Positions 237 to 4,518 of a DNA stretch of 35,955 nucleotides are shown here, piece after piece; within the stretch, counting starts at the first letter, position 1, and every line of letters begins with the position of its first letter. The stretch covers positions 1 to 35,955 of the forward strand of contig JASHOZ010000041.1 of assembly GCA_030038395.1 (NCBI GenBank). Reading direction: 5' to 3'. This stretch comes from Nitrososphaerales archaeon (GTDB taxonomy: Archaea > Thermoproteota > Nitrososphaeria > Nitrososphaerales > Gagatemarchaeaceae). Under the pieces are notes generated by a model. It saw nothing but the letters and a program-made list of their open reading frames with translations. It was not told the DNA's origin and did not search any database. The translations under genes were made by a program, and so were the position numbers.

Positions 237-2909
237 TTAGCGGCCCTTCAGCAGCTCCAACTTCTCTGGAAGGTACTTGTCCACGATGTAGCTCAGGCCG
301 TAGCGGGCGAATGCCTCCTGCTCGCTCTTCTTCTTAATCTTCAGGAACGTGTCGAGCTCGTTGTGCCACATCACATCAGTGTAGCGCGGGTCTGACTTCA
401 GCTCGTAGAGCCTCTTGATGTCGATCTCGGTGAGCTTGTCAGAGGGGAGCTTGTACTTGACGATGTCCGACGCCCAGACCCCCAGCCAGACGGCGTCTGG
501 TGTAGTCAGCTCCCGCAAATGCGCGGCGTTCGCTGAGTTGTGAAGGAGAATCCCTGACCTGCCTCCTACGAATCTCTCGACTCCGGGGACGGACAGGTCG
601 TAGACATAGTCGTCGACTTCCGGGGTATTCCTTATGTCGACTATCGGGTCGAAGGCGATGTCAGACTCGACCAGGTTCAGCACGGCCCGCGCCGCTATCT
701 TGTCCTCGTGCTCTCCCGAGCCGCATTCAAGTATGTGCTTCATCACATAGCGGACGCTTTCTCTGTTGATACCGCCTTCCTTTCTCAACCGTTTGACTTC
801 ACAGAGCCGCTCGAAGGTGTATCTGCATCTCAGGTCGTGTCGCTGGTGCCTGCCGATTTGGTTCCTAAGCGCCATCACTCCGCTAGCGACGACCGGGAAC
901 GCCTTCGGCATGAGATACGAACTCTGTGACGTAGAGCTTAGATATTGGAGTATGAAGCGCCTGTCGTCCTTGTGCAGGACCACGGAGGCCACCTTCCCGA
1001 CATCCGACTTGCCTGTGACCATGACGACGTCCTGCTGATTTCCGACCGAAGCTACCACCCCCACCCTGTTCAGGAGGAGGCAGAGTTGGTACACAAGGGC
1101 CGCGTTCTTGAACTTCCAGCAGACGCCCCCCGAATTGGTGACGTACCCGTCTCCGAAGCAGCCTTTCATGTACTCGAGCACCTGGGATCTCCGAGCTGAT
1201 ACAATCACGTCTGGGACACGCTTCGAAGCATGGCCCGAGCCGCACGTCTTCAGGAAGAGCGCGGCGACTGCAACTCCGCCGAAGCTTAAGGTCACTGAAT
1301 GTCTGTCCTCTCGGACGGTGCGGCAAACGTGCACGTCCGGGAAGACTGTGGCTATGCAATCGATGGCGTCCTCGATGACCTCAGGTTCGTGCGTCCCGAA
1401 GCAGAGTGACACGTTTGCCGGCGTCTTTCCTCTCATCGTCACCCACCCCTCCGCCGTGTAATAGCCGAGCAAACGCGCCAACTTGCCTGACAGCCAAAGC
1501 CTCGCGGGGCATCTGACTCCGCGCCTCCCGACACCCGCTTCGATGTAGGCACTGGTCGAAAGACTCAGGTGGGGCCTTTTGGGCGACTCCGACAGACCTG
1601 CCAGAACCCTGCGCCTGTGGTACTCGGAACCTACGTCGGTCCTCACAAGCCGCAGACCTCGAGCGACGACGCCCTCCGGGAGGTCTTCGAGTTCTCTGAC
1701 TACGTCCAACTCGGCGGGCTGCCGCCGTTCGATGGGAAGCTCCCGCGAGATGACGAGCAGGTCTCCCTCGGTCAGACTGTCCGTCCTGACGGCGGAGACT
1801 CTCCCGTTTCGCAGGACGAAAACGCTGTGGTTCGGGGTCACGTCTACCCTGCGTCCGGACGATGTCGTCAGGGCCATGAGCACGCCTTGGTACCTGTGTC
1901 TTATCGCGGAGGTGGCCGGCCTGAATCCTACTTCATTGTTTGGGCCAACGGTGAGGGTCTCGAAGGGAATCGAGGAACAGACCTCGTTGCCGAAGTCGTC
2001 CCTGGCGGATCCGAAACGTCCGATGCAGTCGTCGACGAACTCCCCTATGCTCAGCATCTTGACTCTCCCCGAGCGGTCTCTGACTACGATCGGTTCGCTC
2101 CGTTCGACGGATCCTGACTTGCAAACCATCGCAATGTGTGCCCCCCACGGGTCGGCATCACACAGAATCCCCACCGGGAGGCCGAGCTCCTGGTTAAGCC
2201 GCCTGAGGAGGAAGCGAGTCGACCGCGGCGGCTGTCCCGCCGTATTGATCAGCAGTGCCTTGTACTTGCTGTGCACCCTCTCCTCGACGAACCTGGTGAA
2301 CAGGCCGCCCTTCTCTATGGCCAGCACCATCTCGGCGTCCGTGTCGGCGAACTCCGCCGTGGTAAGCGCCGGGCCGATCATCACGCCGTCTGGGTTGGCG
2401 GACAAGTCGGCCTTCTTCCCTTCGTACCCCGGGACTGTGTACTCTATGGTCAGGTTCCCGAATATCGCGCTCCTCTCCTCAGGGTAGATGTTCATCCCCT
2501 CCCTCGCCATCTGCATCACGACCTCGAGGTCGGTGATCAACTCGTCAGACTCGGCCTGGTCCACGAACTCGACGTCGAACGCCTGTGCGGAGTAGAAGAC
2601 GTCCCTGAGGGTGGACGTCCTCTTCTCGTCGACGAGCTTCTTCGCAAAGTACGCGAGCCAGATGAGCTGGGTGAAGGGGCGTATGTGCTTGATGTTCCCA
2701 GACGAGCGCTTCACCGTCGTGGGACCTAGGACGAACTGCTGCAGCTTCCTGTCGTAGACTATGTTGCGGACTGACCTGCTGGCGAACGTGAGGCTGGGGA
2801 ACCTCCCTTCGTCCAGGTCGGAGTAGACACTCAGGCCCAGGTTCTTCAGGAGGGCCTGGGCGCTTGTCTTCCTAGCTTCCGCCGAACTCGTCGATTTTCT
2901 TTTGCTCAA
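237..2909 (-). CDS. top6A: DNA topoisomerase VI subunit A, precursor with an intein
   Basis: Catalytic subunit of topoisomerase VI, the archaeal type IIB enzyme that makes the double-strand break by a tyrosine link to DNA. The precursor has 890 residues. Removing an intein at residues 267-791 leaves 365 residues, a normal length for the family. The N-extein carries the winged-helix motif TLRDVFY with Y106 as catalytic tyrosine, the same number as in the Sulfolobus enzyme by my recollection. The TOPRIM domain has E199 (AIEKGG) and the DxD pair D251/D253 (CDADPWG). The C-extein starts SANAAHL and ends at the C-terminus. The splice junctions rebuild KSGSANAAHL, which matches the family's K-x-G-S block after the DPWG motif. 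The ATG overlaps the end of top6B by 38 bases, so the two subunits are probably translationally coupled. Confidence 0.95.
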   Translation of the reverse strand: MSKRKSTSSAEARKTSAQALLKNLGLSVYSDLDEGRFPSLTFASRSVRNIVYDRKLQQFVLGPTTVKRSSGNIKHIRPFTQLIWLAYFAKKLVDEKRTSTLRDVFYSAQAFDVEFVDQAESDELITDLEVVMQMAREGMNIYPEERSAIFGNLTIEYTVPGYEGKKADLSANPDGVMIGPALTTAEFADTDAEMVLAIEKGGLFTRFVEERVHSKYKALLINTAGQPPRSTRFLLRRLNQELGLPVGILCDADPWGAHIAMVCKSGSVERSEPIVVRDRSGRVKMLSIGEFVDDCIGRFGSARDDFGNEVCSSIPFETLTVGPNNEVGFRPATSAIRHRYQGVLMALTTSSGRRVDVTPNHSVFVLRNGRVSAVRTDSLTEGDLLVISRELPIERRQPAELDVVRELEDLPEGVVARGLRLVRTDVGSEYHRRRVLAGLSESPKRPHLSLSTSAYIEAGVGRRGVRCPARLWLSGKLARLLGYYTAEGWVTMRGKTPANVSLCFGTHEPEVIEDAIDCIATVFPDVHVCRTVREDRHSVTLSFGGVAVAALFLKTCGSGHASKRVPDVIVSARRSQVLEYMKGCFGDGYVTNSGGVCWKFKNAALVYQLCLLLNRVGVVASVGNQQDVVMVTGKSDVGKVASVVLHKDDRRFILQYLSSTSQSSYLMPKAFPVVASGVMALRNQIGRHQRHDLRCRYTFERLCEVKRLRKEGGINRESVRYVMKHILECGSGEHEDKIAARAVLNLVESDIAFDPIVDIRNTPEVDDYVYDLSVPGVERFVGGRSGILLHNSANAAHLRELTTPDAVWLGVWASDIVKYKLPSDKLTEIDIKRLYELKSDPRYTDVMWHNELDTFLKIKKKSEQEAFARYGLSYIVDKYLPEKLELLKGR
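537..2111 (-). other. Intein with LAGLIDADG-type homing endonuclease domain, inside top6A
   Basis: In-frame protein splicing element of 525 residues (precursor 267-791). Block A starts at Ser267 (SVERSEPIVV), so nucleophile 1 is serine rather than the commoner cysteine. Block B is TPNH with T358 and H361. Block F is VYDLSVPGVERFV. The C-terminal splice block is LLHN791 followed by Ser as the +1 nucleophile. Between them are two degenerate dodecapeptide motifs: LARLLGYYTAEGWV at about 477-490 with acidic E487, and LEYMKGCFGDGYV at about 578-590 with acidic D587. Both acids of a LAGLIDADG endonuclease thus seem present, so the element may still be mobile. It sits directly after the metal-binding DxD of the TOPRIM domain, a typical conserved-site insertion. 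Confidence 0.92.
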
Positions 2910-4518
2910 TCTCCGCCGCTTCCTGCTCGCGTCCTTGGTCTGGGCCGTCTTCCCCAGTCAGCACCCCGCCCCCTTCTTGCTCCCCGCCCGGCGACGCTTC
3001 TGTGACCGTGTCGCCCTCGCCTATCAGCTTCCTGTACGGTGGGAGCTTCTTCTCCCCTGCGAGTTCCTTCGAGAACCTGGCTATCAGCGGAAGGTATTTC
3101 CCATAGATGTTAATCTTCCTTTGGACCGCCTCCATGTTCCCCTTCCTGGACAGGAAGATCCCCAGCCTGCGGAGGGCCTCCCTCGACGCGTTCTTGATTT
3201 CCCTCTCGATCTCGGGTCTGTCGGCGATGTACTCCTTCCCGACGGTCTTGTACGGAATCCGCGTGCTGCAGATGTGGGTGATCACTCCGACGGGCGCTTC
3301 TGGGGGGACGTGGTACCTGCGCCAGTCAACCCCCTCGGTCAGGACCTCGAAGCTGACGTCGCTGCTCTCGTCATACAGGAGCGGGATCCTATTGGCGAAC
3401 CTGAACAGCCGCATCCCGGGCTGCAGTACCTTCCCTCCATAGGCCACTGCGACCTCCACGAGGAAGGGGAAGCCCGAGTAAGATGAAGGCGGCCTCGTGA
3501 CAACGGTGGCGAATTCCGGCTGAAGCTCCTTGTTGACGCCCGCGAGCAGTATCTCCTCCCCGACAGGCGAGAGCACCGCCGCGTCCGGCTGGAGGAAGTC
3601 AGGGAAGCGCTGGAGCGCATCAACTATCGAGACGATCTGGACGTTGTTCAGTCGCTTCGGGGGGAGCCGCGGGCTCACACCCGCGAACTCAAGGAACTTC
3701 GTGGCTATCTTCTCCCCCACTCTGTGGAAGTGGGTGACCATAAACGACTTCATGTCGTGCTCCTCAGAAGACTTCACTATGCGCTTGAATGCCTCAACGT
3801 CGATTCCGTAGGGGTGCGGGAGAGTCTCCTTCGGTGCCGCTGGCATCGAGGTGGTCGCGCGCTCGTAGAAAGTGACCTGCCCGGTCGGGTCGACGAATGT
3901 GAGGTTCGCGTAGCTTGCAACGAGCGCCGTTTGTTTGAAGTAGTCCGCTATTTTCTGCGAGGATCTAAGGTAGTCGCCTTCGAGTGTCAGATCGACCCTG
4001 GTTCCAGTGGTCCCGTCGGCGTCGCTGGCAAAGCGTTTCAGGACCGAGGGCCTGTTCTCGCCGATGTCGATTATCATCTGGAACGAGTACTTTCGCTTTC
4101 CGTCCGGTGAGGTCGTCACGGTCACGGGTTTGTTCGTCGTAATCTGCCCGTAGAGGATCGCCATGGTCCCCCCGAGGCCGAACATCCCGCGCGACTGCCG
4201 GAGGACATACTTCGACCCGTAGAAGACCTTCCCGAACGCGCTCGGGACGTGCTGAGGTGCTACGCCTGGTCCGTTGTCGATGACTGTCAACCTGTAGGGC
4301 TTTGGGTCAGGGAGGTCAGGGTTATCGCCCTCGGGGATGATTCTGACATAGACATCCGGAGGGGTGCCAGCTAGCTCGGCCGCGTCCATCGAGTTCTCTG
4401 CGAGCTCTCGCACCGCCATATACAGGGCCCGCGCCGGGTTGGTGAAACCCGCGAGATCGCGGTTCCTGTAGAAGAACTCTGAAGGGGAAATCTCGGCGAA
4501 GGTTGCCCTGCTGCTCAA
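2872..4518 (-). CDS. top6B: DNA topoisomerase VI subunit B
   Basis: ATP-operated clamp subunit of topoisomerase VI, 548 residues, which works as an A2B2 heterotetramer with Top6A. The GHKL ATPase fold is clear: the N box RELAENSMDAAE with N42 as the Mg ligand, the G1 box DNGPGV at 81-86, and the G2 lid GMFGLGGTM at 111-119. The transducer region follows (RIPLLYDES...WRRY), and the C-terminus is a Glu/Gly-rich tail probably without fixed structure. The start is TTG at 4518, chosen because the family N-terminus (ISPSEFFYRNRDLAGF) lies just inside it. The 3' end overlaps the top6A start by 38 bases. It follows the KH gene on the same strand after a 158-base gap. Confidence 0.95.
   Translation of the reverse strand: MSSRATFAEISPSEFFYRNRDLAGFTNPARALYMAVRELAENSMDAAELAGTPPDVYVRIIPEGDNPDLPDPKPYRLTVIDNGPGVAPQHVPSAFGKVFYGSKYVLRQSRGMFGLGGTMAILYGQITTNKPVTVTTSPDGKRKYSFQMIIDIGENRPSVLKRFASDADGTTGTRVDLTLEGDYLRSSQKIADYFKQTALVASYANLTFVDPTGQVTFYERATTSMPAAPKETLPHPYGIDVEAFKRIVKSSEEHDMKSFMVTHFHRVGEKIATKFLEFAGVSPRLPPKRLNNVQIVSIVDALQRFPDFLQPDAAVLSPVGEEILLAGVNKELQPEFATVVTRPPSSYSGFPFLVEVAVAYGGKVLQPGMRLFRFANRIPLLYDESSDVSFEVLTEGVDWRRYHVPPEAPVGVITHICSTRIPYKTVGKEYIADRPEIEREIKNASREALRRLGIFLSRKGNMEAVQRKINIYGKYLPLIARFSKELAGEKKLPPYRKLIGEGDTVTEASPGGEQEGGGVLTGEDGPDQGREQEAAEIEQKKIDEFGGS

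Follow-up and report, generated by a model that had tools for sequence, protein, structure and literature searches.

A class 1 LAGLIDADG intein in the TOPRIM domain of topoisomerase VI subunit A from a Gagatemarchaeaceae thaumarchaeon

Introduction

The closest described relatives, in both sequence and fold, of the intein reported here, which interrupts subunit A of topoisomerase VI (Top6A, the ancestor of meiotic Spo11), are PI-TkoII (the Tko Pol-2 intein, 2cw7), whose host gene is a DNA polymerase, and related archaeal LAGLIDADG inteins. PI-TkoII and the Top6A element have in common a HINT splicing domain, a two-motif LAGLIDADG endonuclease and a C-terminal HN, but they are only 22% identical in the fold alignment and differ in insertion site and endonuclease target. 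A further likeness is to the inteins of archaeal RNA polymerase A'', an intein-bearing family whose NCBIfam model (NF011491) is matched by the Top6A intein along most of its length (E 1.2e-33), although the host gene differs.

Within topoisomerase VI, Top6B inteins have been described in Halobacteria (PMC4071816); these also reside in a subunit of the enzyme, but in the partner gene, at another site and in a different group of archaea. Several Top6A and Top6B sequences are reported to have had inteins that were taken out of an alignment (PMC9348778); they concern the same gene as here or its partner, and the text consulted mentions them without organism, site or analysis. A count over 18 thaumarchaeal genomes gave one single-intein gene and zero multi-intein genes (PMC10643990, Table 1). 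No paper describing a Top6A intein site was found among the texts of open PMC papers, and as far as that search reached the record of this host site is new. We add a record of the host gene and its insertion site, a full homing-cycle series, four TOPRIM sites and double-intein alleles.

The sequence analysed (the window, 35,955 nucleotides, contig JASHOZ010000041.1) belongs to the metagenome-assembled genome (MAG), 90.7% complete, of an uncultured thaumarchaeon from soil or groundwater.

The interrupted Top6A gene

The Top6A of the window contains TP6A_N and TOPRIM domains (Pfam) with both the Glu (IEKGG) and DxD (DADPWG) metal-site motifs, and its TOPRIM domain is broken into two stretches by the insert (Table 1). 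The reading frame matches the NCBIfam models for Top6A, intein_Nterm and intein_Cterm. Joining of the exteins yields a protein of 365 aa, similar in length to the Top6A of intein-free relatives, that aligns end-to-end with solved Top6A structures such as that of Methanosarcina mazei (2q2e, E 1.4e-63) and, in the numbering of this alignment, places the insertion between residues 269 and 270 of 2q2e. An original prediction made on this DNA had given the same sizes, 365 residues for the spliced product and 525 for the insert, which are borne out by computation from the sequence, as is the family-like block (KSG/SANAAHL) that it saw rebuilt at the junction. It had also put the insertion right after the DxD; the insertion indeed lies in TOPRIM and after this motif, but more precisely 13 residues past the second Asp.

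Table 1. Coordinates of the Top6A intein, its host gene and neighbouring features in the window
Feature	Position	Strand	Remarks
Top6A precursor reading frame	237..2909	(-)	890 aa, TTG start; Pfam TOP6A-Spo11_Toprim 6e-47
N-extein of Top6A	2112-2909	(-)	266 aa
C-extein of Top6A	240-536	(-)	99 aa; stop codon 237-239
TOPRIM DxD metal site, DADPWG	2151..2159	(-)	13 residues upstream of insertion
Class 1 intein, Ser1...HisAsn, LAGLIDADG homing endonuclease	537..2111	(-)	525 aa
Ser1, splice nucleophile 1 (block A)	2109..2111	(-)	invariant in 15 same-site inteins
Block B, TPNH (T92, H95)	1827..1838	(-)	T92 and H95 invariant
Homing endonuclease domain (roughly residues 201-391 of the intein)	939..1511	(-)	Pfam LAGLIDADG_3; absent from G163 mini-intein; fold match PI-TkoII, I-DmoI
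LAGLIDADG motif 1, LLGYYTAEGW	1443..1472	(-)	catalytic acid E221 at 1449-1451
LAGLIDADG motif 2, MKGCFGDGY	1143..1169	(-)	catalytic acid D321 at 1149-1151
Post-endonuclease helical region, residues 392-487	651..938	(-)	conserved; mini-inteins keep part
Block F, YVYDLSV (D505)	588..608	(-)	D505 invariant
Block G, His524-Asn525	537..542	(-)	invariant
Ser+1, second nucleophile of splicing, at the start of the C-extein	534..536	(-)	Ser in all alleles listed
Site b, VWA/SDI, empty in window	468..473	(-)	filled in G020, G326, L069, L080
Top6B, partner gene	2872..4518	(-)	548 aa, uninterrupted

Splicing anatomy and fold

The junctions read MVCKSG/SVERSEPIVV...GILLHN/SANAAHLREL, and the insert has the features of a class 1 intein, namely a Ser1 nucleophile, a TxxH motif, His-Asn followed by Ser+1, a host protein left intact after excision and a HINT fold. 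S1, T92, H95, D505, H524 and N525 are unchanged across all 15 aligned same-site inteins, the other 14 of which are 40-56% identical to that of the window; the +1 residue falls outside this alignment and is Ser in every allele listed. The proposal of serine as both nucleophile 1 and +1 residue is thereby upheld, and the decay of splice residues in relatives, named beforehand as grounds for rejecting the intein, is not seen.

The Pfam Intein_splicing model matches the window reading frame with E 9e-20. An AlphaFold2 model of the intein, built on the same-site alignment (pLDDT 83.7, pTM 0.82), has PI-TkoII as its best Foldseek match (2cw7, E 2.5e-27, TM 0.71), in agreement with the profile search; behind it come endonuclease-bearing VMA inteins and PI-PfuI and, further down, mini-inteins and I-DmoI. 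Matches to 2cw7, 7qss and 5o9i support the HINT fold. Pfam, NCBIfam, the fold match and the empty alleles described below thus agree on the predicted intein in Top6A. An insert at this position is far beyond chance, and the assignment to a genuine class 1 LAGLIDADG intein, presumably ordinary in mechanism, is well supported by sequence and model.

The endonuclease domain

Pfam LAGLIDADG_3 matches the window reading frame in two stretches (2.2e-6), and both motifs keep an acidic residue, as had been predicted. The motif 1 acid is changed from E to G in G261, where SEG has become SGG, and in L077. Only two pairs of inteins gave usable dN/dS values, and the figures are rough because dS is close to saturation in most intein pairs: for the window and G252, dN/dS is 0.21 in the endonuclease vs 0.33 in the N-terminal splicing region, so that nothing points to decay of the copy in the window; for the close pair G199 and G261 the splicing region is under strong constraint (0.04) and the endonuclease under weaker constraint (0.29). 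The DNA flanking the insertion is only about 60-80% identical between alleles, so that the empty top6A site is a candidate homing target for the window endonuclease. Mini-inteins retain part of the conserved helices that lead from the endonuclease to block F, which suggests for this region a role in splicing rather than cutting.

Same-site alleles and the decay series

Top6A matches were present in 285 of 300 genomes of the class and are nearly all uninterrupted. Intein-free alleles, which the original prediction had proposed looking for in close relatives, were found at up to 93% extein identity, with exactly the insert missing at the same position, and many sister species in the genus of the window are without the same-site intein. 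The intein itself occurs in 7 of the 16 sampled genomes of the family, and its start is present before a contig end in one genome of another family (G029). A scan of GTDB-species contigs with the intein alignment as query yielded 17 loci (L065-L081) with an intein in Top6A and one C-terminal remnant (L094), all from archaeal MAGs titled mostly Thaumarchaeota or Nitrososphaerota; the same contig scan with the single window intein as query gave no match. One intein-bearing MAG, SubAcS15-15, stands in a published Gagatemarchaeaceae genome table (PMC10640624), and by its kinship the window is assigned to the same family. The site had been judged not to be a common one, which is fair, but it is not peculiar to this genome, being filled in several members of the family, and PMC9348778 mentions inteins of Top6A without giving detail.

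The alleles include full inteins (window, G252, G199), an intein with the E-to-G endonuclease change (G261), mini-inteins (G163, L080) and empty sites, so that among relatives alleles that are empty, full, endonuclease-dead or reduced to a mini-intein are found side by side. Long Top6A frames in G067 proved to be N-terminal low-complexity extensions, and two Top6A matches in G039 to be two intact copies; neither is read as an intein.

All 15 intein-bearing alleles encode the +1 Ser by a TCN codon, but 3 of 11 empty ones (G146, G169, G221) use AGC, which might be a mark of homing resistance.

Horizontal movement

The disagreement between extein and intein trees is strongly supported. Clade L068/L070/L071/L074/L077 of the extein tree is rejected by the intein data (AU p 0.00057), and the extein data reject two intein clades (AU p 0.0011 and 0.00017) as well as the grouping of all intein bearers of the genus into one clade (p 1.6e-5), these p-values being somewhat optimistic because the clades were picked after the trees had been seen. 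At least 7 changes are needed to place intein presence and absence on the extein tree, and inteins outdiverge their host genes at synonymous sites (for G199/G201, dS is 0.42 in the extein and at least 1.0 in every region of the intein). The conflict between intein and host-gene trees indicates that the element has moved, and horizontal movement of the same-site intein is the simplest reading of these sequences. Among the viral contigs scanned, the only inteins found were 24-27% identical, and hence no viral carrier was found.

Further Top6A sites and double-intein alleles

Besides the site occupied in the window (site a, KSG/SAN), inteins are found at three other positions in Top6A. Site b (VYA/SDI) holds an intein in G020 and also in G326, a genome of another class; site c (TD/S...HN/SDPYG) lies inside the DxD of Top6A in G309 (L108/L110); and site c' (TDCD/S...HN/SYGFYI) directly follows the DxD in G486 (L111/L106). 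G309 and G486 belong to other Thermoproteota families than the window, and their insertions, two residues apart, are separate sites. Complete inteins at both site a and site b, with 22 extein residues between them, are present in L069:3001-6195 and L080:3001-5541, the first intein of L080 being a mini-intein. L066 and L067 have site a filled and the start of an intein at site b, the former with a frameshift in that MAG and the latter stopping at the contig end.

The MAG of L066 also carries a Top6B intein (L066:1-1950, VITHI/C...HN/CSTKVPYKT), whose insertion point is empty in the Top6B of the window.

Inteins have probably targeted the catalytic TOPRIM core of Top6A repeatedly across Thermoproteota: at least 4 insertion sites fall in a stretch of about 40 residues, and some alleles, from a lineage (Thaumarchaeota) earlier counted almost intein-free, hold two inteins with 22 residues between them. 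If true, this would give haloarchaeal MCM a natural counterpart, a second system in which interference between neighbouring inteins could be tested, here mapped to an essential enzyme's active site.

Maintenance of the intein and host dependence

We consider it very probable that the element is a selfish class 1 LAGLIDADG intein that homes into empty top6A alleles, its cost hidden by predicted splicing. The complete precursor would first be made; in it, an N-to-O acyl shift at Ser1 and transesterification to Ser+1 would be followed by Asn525 cyclisation and an O-to-N shift, releasing Top6A of 365 residues and an intein of 525. The free intein would be expected to cut the empty KSG/SAN site (the candidate target), with repair copying the intein in. 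This account adds splicing, endonuclease activity and a dependence of Top6 on splicing, which we infer, to what is observed here: the anatomy and conservation of the element, its fold, alleles that lack it, the stages of decay and the conflict between trees.

A tentative, less likely reading is that the intein of the window lineage still splices but has an already inactive endonuclease, and is kept by vertical inheritance with precise loss being rare. Same-site relatives have lost the catalytic acid (G261) or the whole endonuclease (G163, L080), and intein sequences diverge far faster than exteins, as this would have it; the window copy, however, keeps both acidic residues and the endonuclease fold, its endonuclease dN/dS against G252 is about 0.2, and within the family the intein tree is at odds with that of the exteins. 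That the top6A gene is simply broken, through an intein that no longer splices or a chimeric contig, is extremely improbable: the reading frame is intact, the splice residues are invariant, same-site inteins occur at 17 loci from other assemblies and no second Top6A is seen in the genome, even though this is a metagenome assembly and a relative (L066) has a frameshift in top6A.

Topoisomerase VI is the only type II topoisomerase detected in the MAG, with one Top6A seen; no GyrA/ParC relative was found there, an absence that is no proof at 90.7% completeness. If Top6 is the sole type II topoisomerase, splicing would be expected to be essential to the host. An insertion in the catalytic TOPRIM domain of such an enzyme could also suit a host-retained switch, in which conditional splicing gates topoisomerase VI activity; this is very unlikely, as the many sister species of the same genus without the intein argue against a needed function, and no tested feature indicates conditionality.

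Other inteins of the genome

The genome of the window contains at least 9 inteins besides that of Top6A, in CDC48 (two), V-type ATP synthase A, aIF2-gamma (in the P-loop), RtcB, uS12, the 2-oxoacid:ferredoxin oxidoreductase beta subunit, SufB and the NADH dehydrogenase 20 kDa subunit (L058, L059, L060, L061, L062, L063, L112 and L113 for those outside uS12). The CDC48 gene, with its two intein sites, is split over two contigs whose overlap sequence is slightly different. Inteins are present in 17 of the 18 genomes of the genus.

The uS12 intein (509 residues; contig C23:26356-27882, + strand; locus L064:2357-3883) has the junctions PNSAIRK/CVSSDTRVL...LLTSN/CVRVQIVKNGK, and its reading frame matches Pfam Intein_splicing and a split Ribosom_S12_S23. 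The gene is split in G518 as well and uninterrupted in most other sampled genomes of the genus. No paper on a uS12 intein was found in the open PMC literature; inteins in ribosomal proteins look unusual, and this one may be a more surprising lead than that of Top6A.

Implications

Intein-bearing top6A genes may be split or misnamed by annotation pipelines. The double-intein alleles offer a new test case for interference between neighbouring inteins, and Gagatemarchaeaceae-like thaumarchaea are intein-rich, in contrast to the published table (PMC10643990). Topoisomerase VI subunit A emerges as a repeatedly invaded intein host, with all stages of the homing cycle represented in one archaeal family.
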